A stretch of 64,000 nucleotides of DNA from Theodoxus fluviatilis. Lineage: Eukaryota > Mollusca > Gastropoda > Cycloneritida > Neritidae. This document shows, piece after piece, positions 3,201 through 50,760 of this stretch. Within the stretch, counting starts at the first letter, position 1; each line of letters begins with the position of its first letter. The translations under genes were made by a program, and so were the position numbers. The stretch spans positions 87,735-151,734 of the forward strand of contig JAWQFJ010002781.1 of NCBI GenBank assembly GCA_034096865.1, read 5' to 3'. The notes under the pieces are model-generated. The model saw only the letters and a program-made list of their open reading frames with translations. It ran no database searches and was not told where the DNA came from.

Positions 3201-4573
3201 GTACATGAAGTATATTGTCCTCACTGAAAAAACTGGATAAGCATAGGATCAGTTGTAGAAAAAGTAGAAGTGTATTTTTGAGCATGGAGACAAATTATTC
3301 ATATCTCCCATTGAAAAAGACTATTATAGTTTGTACCATAGCGTCCCTGGAGGTAGTCCTCAATTATGTAAACACAGGAAAGATATTGTCTTCACTGAAG
3401 AAACTGCAGTATTGCCGTATCTGTTGTTGAGACAGAGCAACAGGAAAGATAGTCTTCACTGTAGAAACTGCAGTATTGCCGTATCTGTTGTTGAGACAGA
3501 GCAACAGGAAAGATATAGTCTTCACTGTAGAAACTGCAGTATTGCCGTATCTGTTGTTGAGACAGAGCAACAGGAAAGATAGTCTTCACTGTAGAAACTG
3601 CAGTATTGCCGTATCTGTTGTTGAGACAGAGCAACAGGAAAGATAGTCTTCACTGTAGAAACTGCAGTATTGCCGTATCTGTTGTTGAGACAGAGCAACA
3701 GGAAAGATATAGTCTTCACTGTAGAAACTGCAGTATTGCCGTATCTGTTGTTGAGACAGAGCAACAGGAAAGATAGTCTTCACTGTAGAAACTGCAGTAT
3801 TGCCGTATCTGTTGTTGAGACAGAGCAACAGGAAAGATATAGTCTTCACTGTAGAAACTGCAGTATTGCCATATCTGTTGTTGAGACAGAGCAACAGGAA
3901 AGATAGTCTTCACTGTAGAAACTGCAGTATTGCCGTATCTGTTGTTGAGACAGAGCAACAGGAAAGATAGTCTTCACTGTAGAAACTGCAGTATTGCCGT
4001 ATCTGTTGTTGAGACAGAGCAACAGGAAAGATATAGTCTTCACTGTAGAAACTGCAGTATTGCCGTATCTGTTGTTGAGACAGAGCAACAGGAAAGATAG
4101 TCTTCACTGTAGAAACTGCAGTATTGCCGTATCTGTTGTTGAGACAGAGCAACAGAAAAGATATAGTCTTCACTGTAGAAAATGCAGTATTGCCGTATCT
4201 GTTGTTGAGACAGAGCAACAAGAAAGATAGTCTTCACTGTAGAAACTGCAGTATTGCCGTATCTGTTGTTGAGACAGAGCAACAGAAAAGATATAGTCTT
4301 CACTGTAGAAACTGCAGTATTGCCGTATCTGTTGTTGAGACAGAGCATGTCAGAAGCAAGAATGAAATGGCATTTACCTTGCATTTAAAGTGTAAATAGC
4401 TGGTTGTGTTAGTGGGAGCACACATGTTTGTGTGTGTATTTTGTGTGTGTGTTATTGCGTGCATGCATGCATGTGTGTGTGTGTGTGTGTGTGCATGTGT
4501 GTTTTTGTGTGTGCATGTGTGTGTGTTTGTGTGTGCATGTGTGTTTGTGTTTGTGTGTGCATATGTGTGTGCA

Positions 4574-6254: not shown

Positions 6255-9200
6255 CCCCCCCCTCCCCCCCCCGGACATTTGTTCCCCTCTCTCCTCCCTC
6301 TATCTCTCTCCTCCCTCTATCATGTATGTATCCTGCGTCTCTGACGCCCATGCTATATAATATGTTGTGGGACCAGCCTACTATGTAGCTTATCAGTCCG
6401 GGAGGGGGCAGAGCCGCCTTCCCTTATCGTTTGTTAATTGAACTTGACATGTGGCCGCTGATAGTCCCTCCTGTCGTTTCTTGCGCGCGCTATGCCTAAA
6501 TTGTTAGAAACAAGAGACAAATTTGATGCTTTCTCTAAATTAAGACATCTGATTGCAATGGTGCAATATTCATTCGGTTGACTTTGTTATGCCTATCAAG
6601 GCAACACTTGGTGTGAATAATTTCGAGTAAGTATAAGGCAGCAATGAGCCTTTTTCTATCATTAGGAAAACACAACTCAGAGACAGGCTGAGATCAGCAA
6701 CTGCCGAGCCCAAACCTGGCTCCTCTGAGGTCCGCGCATTTCTTTGATAAGGAGGGACTGTCGGCAGGTCTACAGGGACAACCACCACGAGTCTCTTGAG
6801 AGATCCCCATCCCATCTGGGGGAGAGACCACTGCCATCATGGTCTGGGTTGGTCCAGGCCATTATCATCAGGCCTCGGACCAGCCAGGAGCTCCTATACC
6901 CATGGGTAACAATAAAGTTGTGGAAAGCAGCAGCGATTTTGTCTCATGCCTGGGCCCTTGTACCATCAAGCCTTGCCTTCACCCCCCCACCACACATACA
7001 ATGAAAATTCATCAGAAAACGGGGGAGAAACATACAACACACACACACACACACACGCATACACACACTCACACGCACGCACACGCATGCACTCGCCTTC
7101 CTTCCCCCCTAAAAATATAAAAACCATGCCTTACCTCTGCCTTCCTATATTGCAGCCTTGCATCATTGGCATTGAAGACGTCATAGACACGCCTGAAGTC
7201 TTGTACATAGTTCTGGAATTGTAAGTACTTTGTTTTGATTGGTTACACACATTTACCTAATGCTTACCATGGGTAATCTGAAATGTCCTGATGTTCTGAT
7301 GTTGTTGTTGTTTCTTCATGTGCATTTGCCACTCTCTTTATGTTGGTAATAATTAGATTTTGCTTGAAAAATCGGGGGTGGGGGATGTTAGTGTTAAGAC
7401 ATTATATTTGCCCTGACTCATTATTGAAGTCACACAAACGGCAGAGCCATGACACCCCATTATTGAAGTCACACAAACGGCAGAGCCATGACACCCCATT
7501 ATTGAAGTCACACAAACGGCAGAGCCATGACACCCCATTATTGAAGTCACACAAACGGCAGAGCCATGACACCCCATTATTGAAGTCACACAAACGGCAG
7601 AGCCATGACACCCCATTATTGAAGTCACACAAACGGCAGAGCCATGACACCCCATTATTGAAGTCACACAAACGGCAGAGCCATGACACCCCATTATTGA
7701 AGTCACACAAACGGCAGAGCCATGACACCCCATTATTGAAGTCACACAAACGGCAGAGCCATGACACCCCATTATTGAAGTCACACACAAACGGCAGAGC
7801 CATGACACCCCATTATTGAAGTCACACACAAACGGCAGAGCCATGACACCCCATTATTGAAGTCACACACAAACGGCAGAGCCATGACACCCCATGATTG
7901 AAGTCACACACAAACAGCAGAGCCATGACACCCCATTATTGAAGTCACACACAAACGGCAGAGCCATGACACCCCATTATTGAAGTCATACACAAACGGC
8001 AGAGCCATGACACCCCATTATTGAAGTCACACACAAACGGCAGAGCCATGACACCCCATTATTGAAGTCACACACAAACGGCAGAGCCATGACACCCCAT
8101 TATTGAAGTCACACACAAACTGCAGAGCCATTACACCCCATTAGAAAGAAGGAAAAAAAGTTGTTGTGGCAAAGGTAACATGGCAACAAGAAAAAAGTCA
8201 GTTGGTCAACATTTCTGTTTCACTGAAAACACCTTTTTCTAGTTAAATAGTGGATTCTCTGAGTGCTCATAGGGCAGGGAAGATGGGACAGCACACGGTT
8301 TGTTGTTTACCATCCTTTTTTCCTCTCCTTCTTTTCCTTTTTTTTAATAAACACAAATTGAAAAATTGTTTAGGATTGGCAGAGAAAAAAAGGATTGGTC
8401 GGGTTATGGTAATCACAACTGTATTTTTTGTTGACCCTAGTTCATTTCCTGCCACCTCAGCCTCTCTGGCTGCATGGGAGTGCCCCGTCCCAGGCTGAGC
8501 TATGACAGCAGGCTCTGAAACGCAGTAGCAAGGAAGGGGTTCCAGCGGAAGAGGGGAGGGACATCAAAGTGGTTCTGGCAGTAAACTACAGTGCAGCATC
8601 TCTCTAGAGCGCATGGCAAGGCTAGAGACTGTCACTCCACAGCTAACCTTTCAGTTTGTCTCAGCCCCCACTGATGGTGATGCCCTGTGTAATCCAGATG
8701 GAAGCTCGGTGCAAGCAGTTGCTCTTGACCCTTCCTTGCATTGCAGGGTGGAGGGAGGGGAGCTGTTTGACAGAGTGGTCAGTGTGGGCAGCTTTGATGA
8801 GCCCACTGCCAAGCTGCTCTGCTTCCTCATGGTCACAGCTGTCAAGGTGAGGGGAGAAGATTTGCTGCAAGATGAGTGTGGCCACAGTTGACTTGCTCGA
8901 CCATTTGGTTGTTGATCATGAACTCAGAATTTGTATTTACACTTTTTTTCATTCCTGTGCATCCTTGTCTCATCAGCAAGGTGCTAAAATTTTAAAGATG
9001 AATAACTTTCCTCTGGATCAGTTCATGCAGCCTTACATCTCTGATAATTTATAATGAGATAAATGGTTTACTTGTATATTAATGATTTCATGATTTGTAT
9101 GTTATAGATTTCATTTGTGTTGATTGATGGCTGTGGTTAACTCTTAAGTCCCTGTAGCGTCTTTCTCCACCCTTGATGGTTTTCCTGATCCGCCCTTCTC

Positions 9201-11968
9201 TTCCCATTGTAGGTTTCTTTTCAGAGGCTAACTCTTAAGTCCCTGTAATGTAGATGGACAGTTTAATTGCCTGTCTTGCAAAGATGCTATGAAAAGTAGT
9301 TGCAGATGGACAGAGAAGGGTGGAACAGGAATACCAGTCAGGGGCGGAGAAAGGCTCCACAGGGAACTTAAGAGTTAACAGGTGATTGATCAGAATCAAT
9401 TTCAGTTTTGGATAAGTCATGGGATTCTTTCATTTTCCATCTGTCATACTGAGTCACATATCAGTGAAAAATTGCTTGTACACGTATATGAATGAGTGAA
9501 ATAGTATGAAGCTCTAATAATACTTGTGTCTTTGATTTGCAGTATCTGCATGATCAAGGAATTACTCACAGAGACTTGAAGGTATGCTCTCTTTGCAAAC
9601 TTTTGCATCACAGCAAGGACATAGCAAGTAGGGTGCTTATGACAGACTCTTGTGGATGCTGGCATGTCTTTGAATGCTCAGTCAGTGACCCTGAGAATCA
9701 ATATAATAATTTCATGTTTGAGGGTTAAATGATGGCTTCATTTTGTTGGGGGGGTTTTCTGACTGTGACCTGGCCAAGCTACCAGTTTGTAGCAAGAGCA
9801 CTCATGATCACACATGAGCAAAGTTACTTCTCCAGGGAAATTTTCCTCGATAACTTTGTTTTCAAAATCAAATTAATGAAAACATATTTAAGGCTTTATC
9901 ATTGAATGGGACTATATCAAATTTAGATCATGCTTTTCCTACATCATGTTTCCAGCCTGGGGATGCAAGGTGTCTTATTTTACCTTTCAGCCCGAGAACA
10001 TCCTTCTGGCTTCTGACACTTCCAATGACACACTCATCAAGGTAAGGCATTGTCTACTTGATGACTGCTAATTGTTTCCATTCGTCACTTATCCCTTCAT
10101 CAAAATCGGTGTGTTTTGTGATGTTGGCATTGTTTGGGTTTTCCTCTCCATAATGTGTTGGCATGGTCAGTATTGATAAGATGGACAGAAAAAAAACACA
10201 GTAGTAGACTGTTCTCTTAGCAGCTTGCTTTACCTGTGGGTCATAATCTGAGAAGTGAAAACAAAACCGTTCTCTCTCCCCAACACAAAAATTTGGACAT
10301 GTCGGAACTCTACAAACAACATTGAGTCAGACAAACTAACCCATGTTTTGATTAAGTTGATTTCCCTGGCGAAATTACATGCTTGCAATATGATTGAAGG
10401 AATGAGGCTCAATGGAAAGAGGTAGTGAAATTGTGGAAAGTTTTCTTGTTGCACTTGAATTTTACCTCTAACTTCCCATGGTGCATTTCAGGTGACAGAC
10501 TTTGGCCTGTCCAAGTTTGTGGACGCTGGCTCCATGATGAAGACTTTCTGTGGCACACCAACCTACCTGGCACCAGAAATCCTGGTCACTGCTGGGTCTG
10601 GCACCTACAACAAGGCCATCGATGTCTGGAGTCTTGGAGTCATCATCTTCATCTGGTACTTGGCATTGATGGCGGCTCTGTAGTCTTGTTGCGTTTATCT
10701 GCTCGGACACAGCAATAGTCATCATCTTCATCTGGTACTTGGCATTGATGGCGGCTCTGTAGACATGTTGCGTTTATCTGCTCGGACACAGCAATAGTCA
10801 TCATCTTCATCTGGTACTTGGCATTGATGGCGGCTCTGTAGTCATGTTGCGTTTATCTGCTCGGACACAGCAATAGTCATCATCTTCATCTGGTACTTGG
10901 CATTGATGGCGGCTCTGTAGTCAGGTTGCATTCATCTGCTTGGACACAGCGATAGTCATCATACTTGATGTTTTCATTTCTTTGCATTCAGCATGTGTTT
11001 ATTTATCTGTTGGTTTTTTTTTCCCTCCCCTGTTTGTGCAAACTTAATAATGTATTCATTGTCTTTGTTTAGAAAAATCCTGCCATCTTAATAATTTATT
11101 AAGTGCCTTCATTTGTTTAGAAAAATCCTATCTAAAGTGAGAGTAAATTATTTTGCTGGCCCTATGTTTTTTTGCAGACTGTATATATATGTATCAAGTG
11201 CATTTGACTTTCAGCCTGAAAAGTTTAGTCTATTAAAAAACAGAGTTCACAAACTTCCTGCCAGAATGGTAGTGTCATTAGTGCTCTGTAACTCAGACTC
11301 ACTGGTTTTGAAACCAAAAGAAAGAAGAGTGAATTTTGCATCTGCAGGTAAAATCCCCACAACATCCATAGCATCCCCAGCTTTGACAGTCAGAGAATGC
11401 ACATTAGGTTGAGAGAAGGTTGCTACCAGGTTTTTGCACAGCTCATGTTTGCAGCTTGTCCGGCTACCCACCCTGCTCTTGTCACCAGGTTTTTGCACTG
11501 CTCATGTTTGCAGCCTGTCACTGTCGGGCTACCCACCCTGCTCTTGTCACCAGATTTTTGCACTGCTCATGTTTGCAGCCTGTCGGGCTACCCACCCTGC
11601 TCTTGTCACCAGGTTTTTGCACTGCTCATGTTTGCAGCCTGTCGGGCTACCCACCCTGCTCTTGTCACCAGGTTTTTGCACTGCTCATGTTTGCAGCCTG
11701 TCGGGCTACCCACCCTGCTCTTGTCACCAGGTTTTTGCACTGCTCATGTTTGCAGCCTGTCGGGCTACCCACCCTTCTCGGATGAGCGGAAGGATATGGA
11801 CCTTCCCAAGCAGATCATGGAAGGTCACTACTCTTTCCCCAAGCAGTACTGGGAAGATGTCTCAGACTCAGGTAGGGATGAAGAGGAAACTGAAGAATGA
11901 TGAATTGAAGAACAGAGCAGGTGATGGAGTGATAAAGCAGAAAGAATTTACTTCTGCTGTCAGAAATA

Positions 11969-32447: not shown

Positions 32448-33133
32448 ATGGCTGAGCTAAACAACAAGAAGCTTCCGAATCTCAAAATTTGCGTGGATAA
32501 TACTGACAACAGTGACGAAGAAGATGTTGTTGCTCTAGAGGATGAATTGTCAGAAGATTCTGACGTAGCAGAGGAAATTGACGACGATTCTGATGGCGTG
32601 GAGTTCAACGTACGCATCGCTAACACGGGGCGTCGGGAACAGTTGCCCAAGTCCTCAGACTCAGAGTCAGATGGCGAAATCTCGGACGAGGATGATGAGG
32701 GATCAGAGGAATCAGACACCGGAGTTCCAGAAATCCCTGTTCTTCCAAGTGTCAAATCTAGACTCCAACCCAGAGTTGAGCCACCTCCGAGACCCAAGCG
32801 AAAACTTAATCCGAAACCCATGCCAAAGATGGAGGTAAGAGTCACTCCGAATTTATGAGCGTTGCTTCTACTTTTGGTTCTTACTTTGCGAGTGCCTACG
32901 AAGTACACGGTAAAGAAATGTTTGAGTATGTGACACAGACTTACAGGAAGTTGTCGACATGAGTTAAACTGTAGTATAATAGAAAGTAAAGGATCAATAT
33001 CATGTCATCCCAATGAAATGGGCGACATTATGATTATTTCGTGTTCGAAGATGTCAGTTTTAGTTTGTGTTGGTGTACAAGAGGCAGCCGCCAAGCTGGC
33101 AGCCAAAGGAAAAGGAAAGAGAGCCATCTTTCG

Positions 33134-33348: not shown

Positions 33349-35092
33349 TGGGGGGGGGGGGTGTTGGTGTGTGTTTGTGTGTGTGTGTGTGTGGGGGGGT
33401 GACTGACCGTAGATTTGTATTGTTGCAATTTGTTCATGGTGTGCTTAGTGTATGAGGCAAAATGTGAGTATATTATTTATGTATTGAATTTTTATTTACT
33501 GTTTACACAGTGTTTATTATCGTAATTTGATGTAATTTTCCAAATGTACTTTATTGACTTTCTGTTGATTTTAGATCAATCGTCGATATGAAAACAAGGC
33601 TGGCGAATTCATCACTGGAATTGACGTATTGTCCAAGGTATGTGTGGTTATCATGATTGGTAATAACATATGATTAGAATACTTTTACAATGCTTTTCTG
33701 TGTTTCATATAAGCACAGTTTTGTTTGAATTCATGATTACTTCAAGAAAGTTGCAGTGACTGTTTTGGGTGAGTACTGTTATTTCTTTCCAGGTCTTCAT
33801 ATTGATAGTTTCTGGCTGAGAACTAGAAATTATCTCCTTAAAATAAAATATTCCCCATCAACTCTTGAAACAACAAAAACTATGGATATATCCAAGCATG
33901 ACTCATGAACTGTGGCAGTAAAGATAATGTCATCTGTGGGTTGTAATTTATAAAGATATGAATGCCAGAGGTTCTGTGTCTGCAGAAATGTGTTCGCAAT
34001 GCTGACTGAACTGGGGTTATCATGGAGGCTTTGTCTTTTGTAACAGGAGGCTGTGGAGAAGCGCATCAGGAGAGCAAAGAGGTTTGGACTGAGCAGATCT
34101 CCCAGTCTACATGGGGAGCCTGACATCAAGACTCTCTATGACAGGTGTTGTATGGTTCTGCTTCCATGCACCAGGCAGTGGCTCTTATGCAATGATGGGG
34201 GGGGGGGGGGGGGGGGGGGGGGGGAGAAATGTTGTGGTCACCCTAGCCTGATGGACCCTGATTTTTCCTGCCAACCCTTAACTTCTTTTTCGATAATCCA
34301 AAATGAAGGAGAAAACAAATTGAAGGTAAATAATGAACTGTGTGCTGTCCCATCTTCCCTGCCCTATGTGCTGTCCCATCTTCCCTGCCCTATGTGCTGT
34401 CCCATCTTCCCTGCCCTATGAACACTCAGAGAATCCACTTTTTAAAATAGCATTTTCAGTTTAAAAGGTTGTGTTTGTGCTAAAAATGGTCTCTTCTATA
34501 TTAAAAAAAAAGAGTAAAGCTTAATTTACGCTGCCCTAATCTGTAAGTTGTCCAACCTATATTTTTGGGGCCTTGTTTACCCTGTCTTCCTGTGTCTAGT
34601 GTCATTTGAGCTGTATATTTTTGGGGCCATGTTACCCTAACCACAACTTTTTTGCCTAACACTAATAGAGCAGCTGTCAAGAGTACCTCTCCCACTGGAA
34701 GATGGTTGGGGTTCAGTCTCCAGCCAGGCATCTTGCATCATCTGTCATTATTTTCCTTTCTCTGCTACTCCTCTCCTCTGAAAGTCTTCCTAGATCTTAG
34801 TCATTATATGGCCATTCCAGTGACCTTTTCCTGACGTTTACTGGTGCATATATTCTTTTGGCACAGAATGATATATTGTATTTTTGTTGTTGTGCATGCA
34901 AAAATTTGTCACAAATTACATTACTACAAGTACAACAGGGTTACTTTCTCTCATTGCTTTTACAGTTTTAGGAATGTCCTCTTCTTCTGGATCAGCTTTA
35001 ATGCAACATCTTATGCTGAATTATGGAATCAACATAAGACAAGGATTTCATGGACATTGTTTATTTTTGGTGCTCTTTAAGTACTGCAAAAT

Positions 35093-35201: not shown

Positions 35202-37946
35202 CTCTCTCTCCCCCCCCCCCCCCCCCCCCCCCCCAAGTTACCTACATGGAGTATTTTGTTTTAAAATGTGTTGACTTTACATCTGATGTAAGGAAGTGAC
35301 TACTTTGATTTGCTCTGTTTTCTAGCCTGAACATCACAGAGGCTCTGGAGAAGGAGGACCACGGAATTCGACTGGAGGCAGTCCACTTGCGAGGCACTGA
35401 CAAGATGAGCACAGAGGATATCTTCAAGTACTTTGCCGAGTTCCCACCTGCCGTGATTGAGTGGATCAATGATACTTCATGTAGGTCTTGACGAATGTGT
35501 TTATCTGTGTCCTTTCTTGCTTCACAGTTTGATGCCCCCTCATAAAATCAGAAGCACCGGAGTTGTGCTGTTTTAAAATTCAATGTTGACTCCTGCTTCC
35601 TCTCTGTTTTGGAATGGTGTGACCTAATTACTAAATTCACTCAGTAGTTGGTTAATTTTCAGAGCTATAAAATAGGCTATTTCCCTAAAACAAGATATGT
35701 GAGAAATACATTACAATGATCAAATCAAGTACATTTGAGTAGAAAGTGAATATTTTGTCAACACACACAAAAACAAGATATGTCAGAAATACATTACAAA
35801 GATCAAAACAAGTACATTTGAGTAGAAAGTGAATATTTTGTCCACACACACACTCACACACTCGCACAAAAAAGGACAAGGAATTCTATAGAAACCCTGT
35901 CTTTTGTCATAGTTTTGATGGGCAGATTTAGGTGAGCAAGCTTTGGCATTTGATAATGTGAGAGGTGCACTGCTGTGGTTCAATCCCCAGGAAGGGAGAA
36001 ATCTGGATTATTAATATTTTGCAATTCCTTGTCGGCCGCTACCCTTTTTTGTTATAACTTTATGTTGTAACCCTGTGTGTGCATGAATGAGTACAAATGT
36101 ACATGTAAAAGATGAACATCTACGATGCATCATCTGTGTGACTGAGTGTTGGTTCAAAGTCTATGACTTGCCAAAACCAAACAAATTGTCCCAACAGCAG
36201 CATCCTCAACCATCCATCATGTTTACTATTGTGATTTTAGTTTACACAATTTGCTGCATGCCTTTTTTCTGCCAGTGTTCCCAGAGATATGTCAAAGTAC
36301 AGCATGGCCACATTTACTGCAACTATTATTATGCAGTAAAAAATCTGCATAATAGTGTTTGTGACTGTTTGAAAAGTACACATGGTATACTGTTGGTGTG
36401 TGTTGCAGGCAATGTAGTGTTGGGAGACCTAGTGTCACATGGGATACTGTTGGTGTGTGTTGCAGGCAGTGTAGTGTGGGGAGACCTAGTGACACATGGG
36501 ATACTGTTGGTGTGTGTTGCAGGCAATGTAGTGTGGGGAGACCTAGTGACACATGGGATACTGTTAGTGTGTGTTGCAGGCAATGTAGTGTGGGGAGGCC
36601 TAGTGACACATGGGATACTGTTGGTGTGTGTTGCAGGCAATGTAGTGTGGGGAGACCTAGTGACACATGGGATACTGATGGTGTGTGTTGCAGGCAATGT
36701 AGTGTGGGGAGGCCTAGTGACACATGGGATACTGTTGGTGTGTGTTGCAGGCAATGTAGTGTGGGGAGGCCTAGTGACACATGGGATACTGTTGGTGTGT
36801 GTTGCAGGCAGTGTAGTGTGGGGAGACAAGGTGACACATGGGATACTGTTGGTGTGTGTTGCAGGCAATGTAGTGTGGGGAGACCTAGTGACACATGGGA
36901 TACTGTTGGTGTGTGTTGCAGGCAATGTAGTGTGGGGAGGCCTAGTGACACATGGGATACTGATGGTGTGTGTTGCAGGCAATGTAGTGTGGGGAGACCT
37001 AGTGACACATGGGATACTGATGGTGTGTGTTGCAGGCAATGTAGTGTGGGGAGACAAGGTGACACATGGGATACTGATGGTGTGTGTTGCAGGCAGTGTA
37101 GTGTGGGGAGGCCTAGTGACACATGGGATACTGTTGGTGTGTGTTGCAGGCAGTGTAGTGTGGGGAGACAAGGTGACACATGGGATACTGTTGGTGTGTG
37201 TTGCAGGCAATGTAGTGTGGGGAGACCTAGTGACACATGGGATACTGTTGGTGTGTGTTGCAGGCAATGTAGTGTGGGGAGACAAGGTGACACATGGGAT
37301 ACTGTTGGTGTGTGTTGCAGGCAATGTAGTGTGGGGAGACAAGGTGACGTGCGCCAGGGCACTGCTCCGACTCAGCAGGAGCTATGAGGAAGTGACTGAG
37401 GAGGAAAAGGAGGAGGCAGAAAACAGCTCCGACAAGCCATCCACACAGACAGAAGGTCAGTTCTACTCCTGTCCCATGCTCTCACCAACGTTTGAATGAG
37501 AACAACAGCCACCCACTCTGCTGCCATGAATTTATAGATTTCACTACACTGCCGCAATCAGCAGGAATGTTTTTAATCAATATCTAAATGTGATATTCAG
37601 CATGTTTCTTGTTGTAAACTTATAATGCATTTATGCTTGTCTGTTTACCACTCTTGATGTTTTCCTATGTTGTGGTTGTATTCAACATTGCTGGGTTGTT
37701 TTGGATTTAAGAGAACTACAAATACCACCCAAAAAAACCTTGGATCTTAGTAAATCACTGGTGACATGAGTTTTAGTAATGCTTGATGTTGAGCTGGCAC
37801 ACAGGATGGTCACTCATTTTGGCTGTGGCACAATCCTAGGCTGTGCCTGAAACACTACATTTTGGGCGCTGCTGTGTAGCAGCGGATGAAATCTCTTAAT
37901 ACACATTTGAGCATGTTACTGAAATTGAAGGTAGATGCAGAATAAA

Positions 37947-37979
<33 letters not shown>

Positions 37980-40900
37980 ACAGATTATGATGGGTATGAT
38001 GATTTTGATGATGATGGAGATGAAGATGATGAAGGTGATGATGGTTGCAGGCAGCCCATCATCTGCAGGAAAGACAGACACTGGCAATGCTGCAGGCCAT
38101 GCTGGCAGGGACAAGGAGGAGGAGGCCATGGAAACAGATGATGATGATGATGATGATGACCTTGACCTTGTCAATGACGATTACAAGCCCAAGCAGAGGA
38201 AGGAGTCAGCAGAGGCAACACACGAGGAGAGGCTGGCCTCTACAGAGAGCGAGGACCCGGAGACTGGAGAGAAGAAAAAGGTATGTTGGAGAAGGCTGAA
38301 TTGTAGGAAATGTTAACTTTGTGTAGATGGTGCAACTGTTTGATGTCTTGTAACACTGTCCTAAGCTAAGTGAATTGTGTTTTTTTTCTTTTCCATAACT
38401 GATTCCTGGTGACTTCTAAATATGATCTCTCTGTTGTGTAAATGAATGAAGAAGTCAAATTTCACAACTTCGCTTTAATCCCAACTCACCACTACATTAT
38501 TTTTCCCTTTCACCCATTTGCATATAATGTTCTCCCCACTCCTTGTTTGTTTAAGTCTTTTTCCAAACCTCATGCTTCAAGCCATACCACCCCTATTTAC
38601 AATTTCAGTAAACACAACCCCATTTCTCATTCTTAACTGAATGGAATGAAGGCCTTCCCATGGCAGACCATAATTTACTTTTGTCATTTAGATACTGATG
38701 CAGTCAGTCCATGTAAGATTTTATCTTGTAAACAAAACTTGAACTAATCATGCTTTGCTTTGCAAAAGTGAATCACTTGAAAATGAATTCAGGTTTCAGT
38801 ACTTGTAATGATTGTGTCAGTGAACTGATCAGTGTGTTTGTGTATCGGGGTAAACCAGTCTGAAAGTCAGACACATTCTGTATGCCTCACAAACATCCCG
38901 TGCTGCACCAGTACATCTCTCATCAGCTGGATTGTCAAGCAGCACTTGCATGCCACCAGGAGATATCTTGTAGTTAAAATTGCGGAAGACAGCAAGCCCA
39001 TCGGGGCAGTATATGTTGCCTCCAAATCCATAGGGAGGCAGCTTCTGCATGGATGTTGATTCGTATTTGTTCAGTCTCCATCCCAGCAGGCAAGTGGGGA
39101 GAGGCAGGAAGAGGACTCCAACCACCAGATGGAGGAGGACGGAGTGGCCAGGAGAAACTCCCAGACAAGGTCTGGACACAGCATCCCCTGGCCCCTGGGC
39201 TCCTGGAGGCTGGGCAAAGAGCACCCCCGCGCCCAGTTCCTCTTCATTCGCTATGCTGCACAGTGTGAGTGTGCTGCCCCTCTCTGTCTCCCTGCATTCA
39301 GCACTGATGTGACCTGTGATTGCCAGCAATCTGATTCCCAGTCATGTGACTTGCAAGAAAGATTGAGTGACAAGTACACAACCCATGACATCTGACTTAC
39401 TTGACTTATTCCCTTGAGTTCCTTGTGGAGCATAGGGCCTCGGCAACAGTCCTCCAGCATACTCGGTTCTGGGCAACTGTCTTCAGCTCTCCCCATGACA
39501 GGTTGCAGTTCCTCTTCTATTCCTCTCAGGATCGCCTCCAGGTGGTCTTGGGGCGACCAAGTCGTCTCTTGCCCTGAGGATTCCACTGCAAGGCCTGCCA
39601 TGTGATGTCATGTGGAGGTTTCCACAAGGTGTGTCCGATCCACCTCCACTTCCGCCTTGCGATCTGCTGTCCAATGCGATCATGGTTTGCCTGCTTCCAC
39701 AAGTCGGTGTTCTTGACTTTGTCTGTCCACCTGATCTTAAGGATGTTACGGAGGCATCTGTTTATGAACACTTGGAGCTTGTTGGTCAGAGTGTTGGTGA
39801 CTCTCCAGGTCTCAGAGCCATAGAGGAGGACAGACTTGACGTTGCTGTTAAATATCTGAAGTTTTGTGTGGGTAGAGAGGGATGTTGATCTCCAGACTGG
39901 TCTCAGAGTGTTGAAGGCATATCTGGCTTTCCCGATTTTGGCTTTGATGTCCTCGTCAGAACCGCCTGTTGCTGATACGACGCTGCCCAGGTAAATAAAG
40001 GAGTCCACCTCTTTGAGCTCCTTGTCTCCCAGGGTAACAGGCTTCTGCTGCTTCTTGTTCACGGCCATGGTCTCTGTCTTTTCCAGGTTGACCTGTAGTC
40101 CGGTCTTCGCTGCTTCTCTGGCAAGGTTGTCTGTCTTCTATTGCATGTGTTGGTAGCATTGGGACATCAGGCACAAGTCGTCTGCAAAGTCGAGGTCGTT
40201 CAAGGTCTGTGTCAGGGTCCACTGGACTCCGGTCCTGCCTGTCCTGGTTGTCTCTCGCATGACCCAGTCCACCACGAGCAGGAAGATCATCGGCGACAGC
40301 AAGCATTCTTGACGGACCCCTGTAGTCACCTCAAATTCCTCTGTCAGCTTGCCGTTGTGGATCACCTGGCACGTGGCGCCCTCGTACAGCTGCTGGATCA
40401 GGTTGACATAGGCTGGCGGGATTCCATAGTGATGGAGGAGTCTCCAAATGGTCTCTCTGTCAACGCTGTCAAACACCTGGCAGAAGTCAATAAAGTTCAG
40501 GTACAATGTTGACTGCCACTCCAGGGACTGCTCCAGGATAATCCTGGGCATAGCGATCTGGTCCGTGCATGACTTGTCCTTCCTGATGCCAGCTTGTTCT
40601 GGACAAAGTCTTTTGTCGACAGCGTCTTTCAGTCGATCGAGGATGATGAGGGTTAGTACTTTACTTGGCACTGACAGTAGCATGATGCCGCGCCAGTTCT
40701 TGCATAGTCCAAGATCTCCTTTCTTTGGGAGTTCCACCAGCTATCCTTTTTTCCAATCCGCTGGGACTCTTCCTTCTGTCCAGACTTTCTGTAGTAAAGG
40801 CAGCAGCATGGTTGCTGTGATGGAAATGTCTGTCTTGAGTGCCTCTGGTCATGACAGCTGGGGAAACTAGTATTTTCTGAATGGAATCTGAAACATGTGG

Positions 40901-43900
40901 ATGGGTTGCACCAAAGTATCCATGCTAATACATGACATGGTAGGTGGAGAATGTAACAAGGAGCTTCATGATTCCTGTGGTTTGTGCTTTGCCTGCCTCT
41001 AGGCCATGTGCACAGCTTTGCAGAGGACATAATGACACTTAATCTTGTAATTATAGTAACCATGAAATATAAAGCACTGTGTTCCTGTTAGTTCCAGAAA
41101 TCAAAAACTGTTCTCTGATATAATATCCTGGCACTGACTCAGGGTTGCAGGGGTAGCATATCAAATTCTGTCATTCATCACATTTATTTAAATGGTGACT
41201 AAATCCTATGTGAAGCCGGTTGCTGATTGGTTGCCTAAAATAGCCGCACACCACTCAGCACCAGAGACATCTTTGATGATACTATCCTATAGCTCAGTTG
41301 TGCACACTTTTTCGTTTCCTGCATTGGTTTTGCTGATTGGCTGTTGAGAAATTCTGCGCAGGGGAAATTTTGGATGCAACAGTTCTTCATGCTTGCAGTT
41401 TGCCAGAGAATCAGTTCTTCTGAAGAATATGTCTCAGTCTGATATAGAAATAGCTCAGTATCATAAATGCAAAGCACAAGAATACAGTGGATCCTACGTA
41501 TATGTAACCAATCAACAGAAAACTGTGTGAAATGGGTAATGTCTTGACACCTATCAGTGCCCGTCTTCAAATGGGATTTAGACGAAAGTATTTACTTAAG
41601 AGTTTTCCCTGTCGTTATAGATGTCAGATGCTGAGCGACATCACCATGTGTGCACTGTGTAGCAAAGGGTTGTTGACTGAACTATCTTTGATTCTTTAAA
41701 TTAGGCTGTGAATAGTTTTCTTTATTCTTTTATTTGTTTGACTCTGGTGTCCATTTTCATGCCCAAAGCATAATTACATTTTTCTTGAAGCTGACAAGAA
41801 GCTGCCTGGCGCTGAGAAGAGAAGCCAGTACTACAGAAAATATGGAAACCCCAACTATGGAGGTGAGGAGGGCAGAGTTGACTAGAGAAATTCTGACAAA
41901 AATGAAGGACTTCTGTCTGGGAAGCAGATACAGAAAACAACCAACGTTACTGTTCTAAAGATCCGAATGGTCTCAACCTAAGAGCTAACACCTCCTCTCC
42001 CCCCACCCCCACCCCCACCCCACCCCACCCCCACACCACCCTACCCCACCCCACTAACACATCTGCCTCCACATGCTATCGTGATCTTTTTCCATTCTGA
42101 AAGTGAAATACTTTCCCTTCCCTACCCACTACATTTCACAACTTCACTTCCTCCCGCCTACACCAGTCACCAAGCTAAGTCTGTTGTTGTTTTTGTTAGT
42201 GTTGTCTGTCCTGACAAAGAGTTTGATACTGGAAATGTTTACGTCCAGTTTTGTCTTGTGAATATAGCCTGGAACAGTAACCTTGGTTGTTTTCTGTAGA
42301 GGAATTCTCCAAATGAGATTGAGATGTTACAGGTGAGTTGCATGTATATTTATACGGTGAATAATTTTGCCAACTATCTCGGGTATTTGAGAAGAAATAC
42401 TGTGGAGACAGTGTGTTTTCACAATGGACTGTAGATGATATTTATAATTCTGTTCAAAATGAAGACCGAAGGGAAATAACATGAAGATTTCAAAAACATA
42501 TTTTGTCAATAGGGATTTAGTAAATGTGTTTACATTCTGATATTTTACTGTGAAGAAATGTCTTATCTAAAATGATTTTGTTTTCTTTGCAGGAATAAAA
42601 GGCCTCGTCAGTAGATCCATGTAAGTCCATTGAATGTTTAAAAATTAATTTTACTTGATTAATATGCGACTGAAATGTGTATGTAAATATCATTATGTTA
42701 ATTAGTTCACAGAGCTTAATTGCAAGTTAATGTTTATCACTAATATCTGCTGTGCTGCAAAAAAAAAAAAAAAAATGTTCACAACATAATTTTCTGTGAA
42801 TTTCACCCAAAATCTCCATCACTGTGTTATTCAGAGTGCCTTGCTGGCTCATGAGTCAGCAATGCTTTATATTCTTTGTGATGTTTGCGATTAATCCTTT
42901 CAATATGCAATAAGAATCTGACAGTACTGGACATCTATCTTGACAGTACTGATTTAAGAACATTTGTGACCCTCCATCCCTAATTGAGTCGGTCTGATAC
43001 TTGGATCAAATCAAGATACAGCTGGATTTTCATCAAAGGGGGTCAGCCGGTGGATTTTTGTGTACTCAGCAAGCAAGACCATTGCTACTCTTTCCATTTG
43101 TAGGCTGTAGCTTAATCACTGTTTGTTTTGTTTTTGTTTTTGTTTTCGTCTGTATGAATGTTGACTGAATGTCTGGTTTGTGTTGCTGTGTTGTTCTATA
43201 TCATCTGCTTTTCATCTTTGTTTCTCTTACCTTGATGTATATTACTTTCATTTACATTCCTATTGTGTGTTTTTTTTATTTTTATTTTCTTTTCTTCTTT
43301 TTTTTTTTTTTAGGCGCTTTGAGTCTCACTGTGTGGGAGTAATGCGCGTTATAAGAGTGATCTATTATTATTATTGCTATGCACAAAGTTTGAATGCCAT
43401 TTTCTCAAAATCCCCACTTTATGTTGCCATTTCTTCAAGTGCTCATAAAACAGCGAGCATTGCACATATCATAATAATCTTGTTATCATTTTTAAGCTAA
43501 TTCATAGTACTATCAGATGGCAATAAAATAAATAATTTGACCGAGGTATCGGACAGACTCATTTTGGGATGGAGGGTCACATTTGGTCCTTTTAGTTTTA
43601 CCTAAGGAGACAATGCAAAAATAACCTACTTTCCCAACTGCCAACTGCACAATGTCATATCTTCACGCTGAGTGGAGAGGAAAGATGTGATATGCTCATA
43701 GGTGAGACGGGAGGGGCTGTACCCAGAATGGTTATGGAGACACCAGGCCTGCCTTGTTTGACCTTCACCTTGACAGATCATGCACTTGTGGCGCAGGAAG
43801 CGACGCCTGATGGCCCGGGCCATGGACGACACCCTGCAGGACGAGGAGGAGGAGGAGGAGGAGGACGCCAGCCCCTCCAAGAGAGCCAGGACTTCCTACC

Positions 43901-46900
43901 GCCAGGAGGAGCAGGAGGAGGGAGAGATCGTGGAGGAGGAGGAGGATCATGATCACCATGGTGAGTAGTCAGATTGAATGCATGAAGGAATGAATGTATT
44001 TGGAAATGAACATTAACATACCGTCTGTCTGCTAGCCCAACCCACAGTGCTCTCCCCTCATGTCCCATAGGGAAGGGAAGATGGAACATTAGGCAGTTAA
44101 TTGTTGATCTTCAATTTCTTTCCTCTTTTTTTCTTTGCATGATTGAAAAAAAAGTTTAGGGTCAGCAGAAAAAAATAGGGTCTGTTGGGTTTCTGTAACC
44201 ACAACTATTTCTTTTGTTGGCCTAATGCAATTTATTCCATAAGATTTTTTGTTGGCCTAATGCAATTTATTCCATAAGATTTTTTGTTGGCCTAATGCAA
44301 TTTATTCCATAAGATTTTTTGTTGGCCTAATGCAATTTATTCCATAAGATTTTTTGTTGGCCTAATGCAATTTATTCCATAATATTTTTTGTTGGCCTAA
44401 TGCAATTTATTCCATAAGATTTTTTGTTGGCCTAATGCAATTTATTCCATAAGATTTTTTGTTGGCCTAATGCAATTTATTCCATAAGATTTTTTGTTGG
44501 CCTAATGCAATTTATTCCATAAGATTTTTTGTTGGCCTAATGCAATTTATTCCATAAGATTTTTTGTTGGCCTAATGCAATTTATTCCATAAGATTTTTT
44601 GTTGGCCTAATGCAATTTATTCCATAAGATTTTTTGTTGGCCTAATGCAATTTATTCCATAAAATTTTTTGTTGGCCTATTGCAATTTATTCCATAAGAA
44701 TTTTTGTTGGCCAAATGCAATTTATTCCATAAGATTTTTGGTTGGCCTAATGCAATTTATTCCATAAGATTTTTTGTTGGCCTAATGCAATTTATTCCAT
44801 AAGATTTTTTGTTGGCCTAATGCAATTTATTCCATAAGATTTTTTGTTGGCCTAATGCAATTTATTCCATTAGATTTTTTGGCGGAATTCTTAATTGCAT
44901 GGGATTGCCAAGCATCTTTCATCTCCTAACATTCTGTGTTGGGGAGTGTTCATGTGTTCTCGCCCTGCTTGCAGACAACAAGGGCAAAGAAGAGGATGAG
45001 GACGAGATGGACATGGACAAGGAGTTGCAGCACTTGATCCGACCCGTGACGCAGCCTCGACGCATGAAGATGTACGCCGATGAGGAGGAGGCCATCATCA
45101 AGGCCAGAAGGTATGTACACTGGGAGCCTCAATGGCAGCCACAGTGTCAGAAATGTGTACACTGAAAACTGCTCAAGGACATACCGCTCCAGTTTCATGC
45201 TACATAAGAGCACTGTGCTTCATGTACTGTGCCCCATATCACAATACTCTACCCCGTGCCACCATTCTCATACTGCCCGAGCTGCTAGTAGTTTAACATA
45301 CAGAGCCAAAACCCTGTGATGGGACAGGCAGGGAAAAAATGTAGGACCACAGACAGGGACTGAACCCGCAATCTTTGGTTAGTGCCCGAAATGCTCTACC
45401 AGCTGAGCCACCATGGTCCGTGTTGTCTTCTCCTGTCTACACTGCCCTGTATCAGCGGCAGTGCCACCATTCTCATACTGCCCGAGCTGCTAGCAAAGAG
45501 GTGAGCTCCTCTCTGTTTTTCCTCCTTGAGCTAAAACAGTCAGTCAATCAGTCAAAATGTAAGGAGTCATGCGGTGATGTTGTGCCAGGACTCCCATACA
45601 CTGAACACACGATTGCTAAATTCATAACAGTGAATGGAGGAGAAATGCAAGGAAGGGCTCATTCCTATGCAGGCAGCCAGGACAGTAAGGGCAAAGTATG
45701 GCCATATGGAACTTTATACATTAAGCACACAAAAAAAGGACCTGTAGTTCTGGTATCATGGCCCCATAAATAGGGTCAGTAGGTCATCTGAACATTTTTT
45801 ATATTTCAAGAAGAGGCTAGATGGAACATAAATTAAAATTTTTCTTCTGCTGAAAATGCTCTTTTTTTAATAACTTAAAACTATTCTTCAGGATGTCTGC
45901 TGGTGTTTGCTTTGCTTTGTGTTTAATTCATTACATGTTTGGTACAATGTGCAGAGTTTTACATAAGAAAGACTCGGAAGCAACCAGAAGCCCTTGAAAC
46001 TATCATCATAGTCATCATTACCACAATATCATAATCATCCAGTGAATCGGTATTGATCAAGTCTGAGTAGCTGTGACGAGATGACTTTTCCTCCTCTGTC
46101 TTATTATTATTATTATTATGCGTCTGCTGAGCCGTAGCACTTAGTGACTTTTCCCTGCCCTGAGCCGGTGTTAAGTAAGCAGTGACCCCCTGTGTAGGGA
46201 AAGTGACTTGCAAATGCTCTGAGTTGTGTTCTCCACTGGGGATATCACGTCGACCAATCTGATGACTTTGTCCTAGCCGAACTGATCAATCAAAGCGGAG
46301 TTAGACGAGCTGTGACAGGATTGGACCGAGTGGACTGTATGACGTAGGAGAGTGCATATAAGCCAGTGTTGTCGAATGCTCGTGGCGTCCTGACATTTAT
46401 TTTCATACGAGCAGAATCCACGGAGATGCGGGCGCCCTGCTCACGTTAGGTTTTTTTTCATGGCTGTGGCCATGTTCATGAGAAGAGGAGAGTGAGATGG
46501 AAATGAGAAAAAGCCCCAGCCCGCCACTGAACTGACGGAAGAAAGCCCACTTGCCAGTGGCCCCAATGAAGGTGGTGAACTGCCTGCCTTCCTGCCTGCC
46601 TGACGTCCCGACGGCCTGTCCCGCAGGAAACCGACTCCACTACAGATGACCTCGGCGAAAGAAGAACAAGTCCCCTCCATCTCTGGCGACCAGAGTCAGC
46701 ACACCAGAGAGAAAGAAGAACCGCCATGTTTTCATCACAGTGGTGAATTCCCCCGAGTCACCGGCTGAAATGTCGCGTGTGCTCTACCCCCCTTTCCCCT
46801 GTCTTACCCCAGTGTAGCACGCGCTAGGCGTGGGGGTTAATCCCGTGCGAGAACTGCGCAGCGTTTCGTCAAGAGGTCAGATAAGTACTTTTGTTTTTTA

Positions 46901-48535: not shown

Positions 48536-50030
48536 TATCCTGGTGTGTAGTCTGCACCTGAGTGACATGCACTATACTATGAAAAGAATAGAAAAGACTG
48601 AACAACAGCAACAAATGATTGATGAAGATAGAAAAAGTTTCCTTTATACAAGCCAGTATTGTATGTGAATAGCCTGCTGCTGTTTCAAAGCAGCACTTGC
48701 AACCAGTATTGAAAGCTCTGTACTTGGTTAAGATACCAGAAATCAAAAGCTCAATGGCAAGCAGTCCTCCATTATTTGTTTTGCAAGCAGCATGACAAGT
48801 ATTGAAGGCTGGTTAAGACACAAGAAGTCAAGAGCTATTTAGCAAGCAGCTCTCCTTTAATTGGTTTAGCATGCAACATACTCGTCAGTGTCATGTGTTG
48901 ACTATTTCCAAGAAATAGACCCACTTAGTCAAAAGCTCATGGAAAGAAAACATCAATGTATCGATGCTTTCCCTGGGAGGAAGCCCTATGAAATGTTCTA
49001 CACTGTCAAAAGGAAATACTGGTTAACTGAATTTTGGGTGTTGGGAAAAAGTAGTTGCAGAATTTTCACTTTTTTCCCCACCCAAAAAGGGAAATATTGT
49101 GTTCAGGAATGCTCCACAATATCCAAGACAGCAGTAATTAGGAGCATGCCATTGTACCCAAGGCAGCTCTTCCATTGCAAAGGCTGAAACTTTCTTTGGT
49201 ATATCATTCCATCAATTGAATGCTTCCATTCTCGGATTTTTCATATTGTTTTGCTAAGTGTTTAGGTTGCAGATGAAAGCCCCTAGTAGAACTAATTTTC
49301 TTTTATCTTCAGGCATGCACCAATCTATCATCTACCCACCCAATGATTTTCTAGCCAAAATTGAGAAAAAGAGAACAATGCAAAGCAGTTTTTTAATTGT
49401 TCTATATGGAAGAGGGTTACTGACTTTTATAATAAAAATTGTCTTTGCTTCTTGCTTTTCCCCCTGTGTTAAAATGCTCACTGGAAATTCATTTTCAAGG
49501 TAGAAGAGAGATGTTTGAATTTCATTAGAATGTCCCAGACAGTAATGCAAGTGCAAGGGATAGATGTTTTCACATTTGGTCTGATGAACCCTTTTGCAGA
49601 TCATGTGTCCTGCAGGGAAAATTACCTGCTTTCAGCCATTTTTTGGCTGCTTTTCAGACTGGCTTACAACAGTGAGAGTTGAGAGTGCACTGTGTATTCA
49701 GTATTGTCTGTAATTCTTTTATCACAAATGATCTGAAATGCTCAACAATGCTCTAATGGTCCATGTTGGACTCGCCTTACAAAAAATGTTGCCGTGAGGA
49801 CAAAATGTCTGGTTTCTAGGATATGCAGAGATGCCAACTGTTCTGATTTTGCCGTATTTCATTACAGCCAGTTGTGGTTTGTTCTGGTGCTATGATGACG
49901 TCAAAATTGTTCTGGGAAGTTAATTTTTGGCTAGCTGGGAGTCACCGTCAGCTGTGTGGTGATTCATTGTTGTGCCACTCATGCTGTACTGTAGGGAGAG
50001 ATTCAGTGTGACGAAAAGAGTCAACAAGTG
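48536..50030. other. No gene recognised
   Basis: Unique-looking, AT-rich intergenic DNA. A plus frame at 48888-49187 is open for 99 codons but shows no family features. Confidence 0.4.
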
Positions 50031-50031
50031 A

Positions 50032-50760
50032 AATGATTAAAAACGACAAGAATAACAAATAAAGACAACAAGTATGACAATTAGAGACAACAAGTACGAC
50101 GATTAGAGACAATAAGTATGATGAATAGAGACAATGAGTATGTCGATAAGAGATAACACGAATGACAATTAGAGACAAAATGTATGACAATTAGAGACAA
50201 CAAGTACGACAATTAGAGACAATAAGTATGATGAATAGAGACAATGAGTATGTCGATAAGAGATAACACGAATGACAATTAGAGTTGATAAGTATGACGA
50301 TTAGAGACAACAAGTAAGACAATTAGAGACAATAAGTATGATGAATGAATATGTCGATAAGAGATAACACGTATGACAATTAGAGTTGATAAGTATGAAG
50401 ATTAGAGACAACAAGTATGACAATGAGAGACCATAAGCATGATGATTAGAGACAACAAGTATGACAATGAGAGACAATAAGTATGATGATTAGAGACAAC
50501 GAGTATGACAATGAGAGACAATAAGTATGATGAATGAATATGTCGATAAGAGATAACACGTATGACAATTAGAGTTGATAAGTATGAGGATTAGAGACAA
50601 CAAGTATGACAATTAGAGACGATAAGCATGATGATTAGAGACAAGTATGACAATGAGAGACCATAAGTATGATGATTAGAGACAACGAGTATGACAATTA
50701 GAGACAACAAAAACAGCAATGAGAGACAACAAGTATGACAGTGAGAGACAAAACTGAAAA
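50032..50760. repeat. Degenerate ~20 bp quasi-tandem repeat
   Basis: Variants of GAGACAACAAGTATGACAAT are strung together about 30 times, with a longer block (AATAAGTATGATGAATAGAG ... TCGATAAGAGATAACACG) recurring at about 50110, 50220 and, in shortened form, 50330 and 50520. Confidence 0.85.

Follow-up and report, generated by a model that had tools for sequence, protein, structure and literature searches.

In a window of 64,000 nucleotides (the whole stretch of DNA analysed here, from the gastropod Theodoxus fluviatilis), the boundary between intron 4 and exon 5 of the gene NCBP3 is multiplied into a tandem array of 17 copies, each carrying a 3' splice site. We consider this array most likely to be a silent mirage in which the last acceptor is used, with a probability of roughly 0.78. 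The same window also holds a new feature, an intron of CHK2 with two further arrays at its boundaries.

The NCBP3 gene and its boundary array

The NCBP3 gene was modelled on the + strand with the following placed exons:

32448..32834, + strand: exon 1, supported by tblastn
33575..33637, + strand: exon 2, supported by tblastn
34047..34144, + strand: exon 3, supported by tblastn
35326..35480, + strand: exon 4, ending ...IEWINDTS-C with donor gtaggt, supported by tblastn
37321..37455, + strand: exon 5 proper (CNVVWGDKVTCARALLRLS...), 135 nt, supported by tblastn
38051..38280, + strand: exon 6 as placed, beginning after TTGCAG/GCA (slash at the junction), based on AG, frame and donor only
39090..39261, + strand: exon 7, supported by tblastn, donor end approximate

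The protein joined from these seven exons matches PF10309 (NCBP3) with 74.3 bits against a curated cut-off of 28.9. The tblastn queries, five NCBP3 proteins from Patella, Gigantopelta, a Haliotis, Potamilus and Lingula, matched six of the seven placed exons and also indicated two more, at about 41763-41879 and 45025-45111, with no alignment from any of the five homologues at exon 6. The gene and exon (NCBP3, exon 5) named in the initial annotation are right. In the first protein search, Patella caerulea ranked highest, with 59% over the searched part, and among the matches listed by the third search Gigantopelta and three Haliotis proteins were on top. There is possibly a small extra NCBP3 exon near 33090. 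Additionally, a cytochrome P450 gene (30154-32085, - strand) lies head to head with NCBP3, and pieces of a retrotransposon reverse transcriptase (RVT_1, DUF6451; 39526-40740, - strand) reside inside an NCBP3 intron.

At the intron 4 / exon 5 boundary, Tandem Repeats Finder reports a single array (36378-37340, + strand) with a period of 57, 16.9 copies, 95% matches, 0% indels and a score of 1723. The tail of the intron contributes about 31 nt to each 57-bp unit and the start of the exon 26 nt, and the acceptor TTGCAG/GC is carried by all 17 copies. The exon starts run from 36409 to 37321 and all 16 gaps between them are exactly 57 bp, as had been annotated initially. The outermost acceptor copies are:

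36403..36411, + strand: first acceptor copy TTGCAG/GCA, exon start 36409
37315..37323, + strand: last acceptor copy TTGCAG/GCA, exon start 37321, sole copy to yield conserved NCBP3

The sequence TTGCAGGCA occurs 17 times inside the array and at two more + strand positions outside it, 606 and 38045, of which the former (606-614) marks where a CHK2 exon begins (612) and the latter (38045-38053) where NCBP3 exon 6 as placed does (38051). The 17 copies represent 11 sequence types with 10 variable unit columns. Copies 1, 2 and 4 have changes of their own; of the four single-copy changes, three fall in copies 1 and 2. The last copy does not differ from its predecessor. Clustering of changes in copies 1 and 2 is expected at an edge escaping homogenisation. 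The minisatellite may have started when 57 bp across the junction were duplicated in tandem, and unequal exchange would then have expanded it to 17 copies with the pattern observed here. Many copies resemble the exon start and one would be the real one, which makes the array a mirage in the amphioxus sense. Intron 4 also contains an 83-bp tandem duplication of two copies (35687-35852).

The start of exon 5 and the choice of acceptor

With the last acceptor, the PF10309 match has 74.3 bits and covers profile positions 1-58 of 59, whereas with the first acceptor it has 62.6 bits and covers 1-46, the domain match being broken at position 46 of 59. The conserved continuation (DKVTCARALLRLS) follows the last copy only, and the contiguous residues CNVVW are present in 175 of 176 retrieved homologues (67 from the first search plus the new entries among the best 120 of 371 from the third). 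The sole exception, P0128 from the mayfly Ephemera danica, is without NVVW and diverges directly after SC, exactly at the position of the intron in the window, so the intron position may be old. Further, the last copy shows the D-K-V-T of two bivalve homologues; L replaces K in 12 of the 16 upstream units, and the other four share the K of the real exon.

The available passages of PMC4595607 give WLDD as the cap-binding motif of NCBP3; this position reads WIND in the window protein, with one D kept, and the W-D-D cap-binding residues sit just before the exon 4/5 junction. In the AlphaFold model of the Patella homologue, the junction (C208/N209) lies inside the predicted RRM strand 207-211, preceded by a strand at 199-202, which agrees with the RRM strand proposed in the initial annotation. 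The pLDDT of this block is 91 to 94 over 171-220 within a largely disordered protein (whole model: mean pLDDT 57, pTM 0.37).

In the reading that we favour, the silent mirage, exon 4 (end at 35480) would be spliced to the last acceptor (37321), and the other 16 copies would consequently leave with the intron. As the last copy is attached to a 135-nt exon with its donor, exon definition would favour it. Since each unit keeps the frame, harmless leakage would be possible, and transcripts using upstream acceptors would be spared nonsense-mediated decay. The leaked products, with RRM strand 3 interrupted by a hydrophobic insert, would probably not be functional NCBP3.

Local signals give little guidance on the choice of site. 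The 17 acceptors vary at just three positions from -30 to +3 and are UG-rich, with 50 to 56% pyrimidine and a longest pyrimidine run of 2; for the five other scored NCBP3 acceptors, pyrimidine content lies between 31% (exon 6) and 75%. In 15 of the 17 acceptors a branch-like TGAC motif is located 31 nt upstream; the first has it at 45 nt and the second lacks it. With acceptors this similar and a shared TGAC spacing, the last site is not singled out locally. RNA folds of three stretches compared with shuffles gave z-scores of 0.34, 1.25 and -0.61, i.e. no signal, so RNA structure does not account for a choice of site. Internal donors (AAG/GTGAC) in the AAG copies were rejected on reasoning from the copies, as combining them with later acceptors would take out 34+57k nt and cause a frameshift. 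Should a single site prevail, its position and exon context would probably be decisive.

Several observations support the silent mirage: the family sequence would be restored by the last acceptor only, CNVVW is contiguous in nearly all homologues, the last copy has D-K-V-T, most single-copy changes sit in copies 1 and 2, and the arrays in CHK2 described below and the reportedly undisturbed splicing in lancelets fit with it. Against it stand the near-identical acceptors, the K shared by four of the 16 upstream units, the identity of the last copy with its predecessor, the transcription of the first site about 0.9 kb earlier, and the folds, which explain no choice.

Reading frame, CHK2 arrays and alternative explanations

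The NCBP3 frame is open throughout the array, and the annotated shared frame without a stop is thereby upheld, as is the range of 0 to 16 extra 19-residue segments given by acceptor choice, the last copy being the real exon start. The peptide that use of upstream acceptors would give is of the type HGILLVCVAGNVVWGD. One other + frame and two - frames are open as well, and the third + frame has stops within each whole unit. As a repeat the array is far beyond chance, but its open frame by itself is not. Of the 31-nt tails before every + strand AG in the window, 2283 of 3980 leave a 57-bp unit stop-free, which together with the one-in-three chance for the length gives a chance of about 0.19 for an in-frame, stop-free unit. 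A stop would arise from only five of the 171 single changes that the unit allows. Across the 16 whole in-frame units, six differences, including a three-base block, alter amino acids and one is silent, compared with 120 and 46 possible single changes, respectively, the observed numbers being tiny. There is no sign in these substitutions that the encoded peptide is being kept. The full insert of 304 residues has a mean hydropathy of +1.47 versus -0.92 for the canonical part.

Protein database searches provide weak evidence against the insert. A search with the array region, queried together with 34 residues of ordinary NCBP3, returned no protein at E 0.001 among the best 7998 word-sharing candidates scored, and not even ordinary NCBP3 was returned. 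Neither LLVCVAG nor HGILL is present in any of the 176 retrieved homologues, the longest of which has 800 residues, with lengths up to about 1255 residues admitted in the third search. The animal's own NCBP3 was not among the matches of the array search nor among the matches listed by the third search.

The two further boundary arrays affect a single CHK2 intron, in which both splice sites are multiplied by units not divisible by three:

10492..10655, + strand: CHK2 exon preceding the intron repeated at both ends
10638..10962, + strand: second boundary array (Tandem Repeats Finder), 79-bp unit, four CHK2 5' splice sites
10655, 10734, 10813, 10892, + strand: last exon bases of the CHK2 donor copies
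11425..11779, + strand: third boundary array (Tandem Repeats Finder), 59-bp unit, six 3' splice sites of the next CHK2 exon
11455, 11514, 11579, 11638, 11697, 11756, + strand: first exon bases of the CHK2 acceptor copies
11756..11871, + strand: CHK2 exon following the intron repeated at both ends

The gaps between the acceptor copies are 59, 65, 59, 59 and 59 bp. Among the 24 possible donor-acceptor pairings, eight keep the frame, and only two of the eight have no stop before the next exon ends: donor 1 joined to acceptor 6, and donor 1 joined to acceptor 3, the latter adding 177 nt. The outermost pair gives an intact CHK2 kinase segment, which still reads as a kinase when joined to the following exon. 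Among solved structures, a kinase segment of 93 residues scores 118 bits to CHK2 chains versus 96 to CaMK1, and it has 74 bits against Pkinase. An upstream segment (exons at 612 and 2343) matches CHK2 chains only, with 37.7 bits. Arrays of the same kind, mostly without a usable frame, are carried by a gene that is presumably still spliced correctly.

These data bear on the strongest alternative, that alternative acceptors produce a ladder of NCBP3 isoforms, each lengthened by between 0 and 16 segments of 19 residues, and that the length of the array varies between individuals. In its favour, all 17 acceptor hexamers are intact and alike, and the unit is a multiple of three without an in-frame stop. 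However, an in-frame and open unit is expected by chance at about 0.19, no sign of protein constraint is seen between the copies, the insert is very hydrophobic and placed inside RRM strand 3, no array protein was found among the best 7998 candidates scored in a search that returned nothing at all, or among the 176 retrieved homologues, and the sister arrays in CHK2 have units that do not divide by three. We regard the isoform ladder as improbable. It is the reading of the initial annotation, and the tunable protein insert put forward there is not supported and unlikely in view of the chance frame, the six altering differences against one silent, the hydropathy of the insert, the weak evidence of the database searches, the CHK2 unit lengths and the reportedly undisturbed splicing in lancelets.

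Slightly less probable still is a combined reading, in which exon-intron boundaries are recurrent birthplaces of minisatellites and the in-frame NCBP3 array additionally gives a leaky ladder that tracks copy number. Units spanning a splice site are found for three of 14 minisatellites chosen from the repeats of the window. With random placement, this has P 0.002 over the window and 0.014 within the two gene spans (10 units), in a post hoc test that includes the originally given array and 51 sites, some of which were read by eye or guessed (late CHK2 exons, P450 exons and late NCBP3 exons). The enrichment of arrays at boundaries is a hint only. The window also contains further long minisatellites at 1003-1823, 3374-4347, 7419-8143, 44212-44881 and 50005-50751. 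The three that lie in CHK2 introns make no contact with placed exon edges, and the one at 44212-44881 ends about 90 bp before the NCBP3 exon at 44975.

A function at the RNA level is very unlikely, be it that the array alters intron length, that it binds UG-rich factors, or that 57-nt units exit as GC-AG mini-introns, in which case upstream acceptor choices would be corrected before export. Each unit has a UG-rich tract, starts with GCA(A/G)TG after CAG and ends with TTGCAG, giving AG/GC at both ends, but GCAATG is a poor donor without the G at +5 of the donor consensus, and the three stretches fold no better than shuffles. The AG/GC ends fit the AG/GY proto-splice form described in the available passages of PMC2891723. 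Least probable of all is an assembly artefact, with the array or its length absent in the animal. Some assemblies do contain errors in repeats of around 1 kb, but here there are 11 sequence types among the 17 copies, with own changes in copies 1, 2 and 4, no N anywhere in the window and many other distinct minisatellites in it.

Comparison with known boundary repeats

Minisatellites at splice sites have been described in other genes. In the interferon-induced gene 6-16 (IFI6), a minisatellite with a 12-bp unit reportedly carries repeated splice donors that are used alternatively. IFI6 and the NCBP3 array share several splice sites in series, and differ in that the former consists of alternatively used donors in a 12-bp unit and the latter of acceptors in a 57-bp unit. 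Introns are also said to have arisen from tandem arrays (Zhuo 2007). According to the available passages, tandem repeats with splice signals can create or activate splice sites (PMC2891723, PMC2812944), and introns from tandem duplications have the AG/GY proto-splice form (PMC2891723). Introns from tandem arrays or from duplication of proto-splice sites and the NCBP3 array are alike in that the repeats carry splice signals; however, the former are new introns inside coding sequence, as far as the passages describe them, whereas in NCBP3 an existing boundary has been multiplied.

The closest likeness is to the mirages of lancelets (amphioxus). The passages on BflGb6, BflGb9 and Adh3 report length instability, including somatic instability at Adh3, and RT-PCR suggesting that the mirages do not interfere with regular splicing (PMC3087553). 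TnC and PGBD5 are further cases, with PGBD5 repeats of 60 and 108 bp (PMC3902484); splicing is reported to be undisturbed in both, for PGBD5 as the inference of the authors (PMC3902484). In the open-access literature searched, the passages found describe multiplied boundaries of existing introns in lancelets only.

Units spanning an intron-exon junction, the mark of a mirage, are present in the NCBP3 array and in the two CHK2 arrays, and the AG or GT is kept in all 17 NCBP3 acceptors and in the four donors and six acceptors of CHK2. As described in these passages, lancelet mirages and the arrays in the window have in common the tandem repetition of intron end and exon start with AG signals kept, and 5' and 3' boundaries are affected in both. 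Edge copies partly escape homogenisation in the lancelet mirages; in NCBP3 the changes in copies 1 and 2 may reflect the same, whereas the last copy equals its predecessor. Divisibility of the unit by three is nothing unusual, given the 60 and 108 bp of lancelet PGBD5. NCBP3 has 17 copies, compared with 3 in PGBD5 and, for BflGb6, 6 in one haplotype and 3 in the other. The NCBP3 array is open in frame, whereas the frame of the lancelet cases is not stated in the passages, and splicing and length instability were studied in lancelets, whereas the NCBP3 array is known from the sequence of one haplotype.

The 17 near-identical acceptors, together with the CHK2 intron of four donors and six acceptors, represent a natural experiment on how the spliceosome chooses by position alone. 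If boundary minisatellites recur across the genome, mirages would not be confined to lancelets, and the route that has been proposed to lead from such repeats to new introns could be traced in a second phylum. The NCBP3 array is a real example of a structure of known kind, in what appears to be a phylum other than that of the lancelets, and its copies outnumber those in every lancelet case for which the passages give a number.
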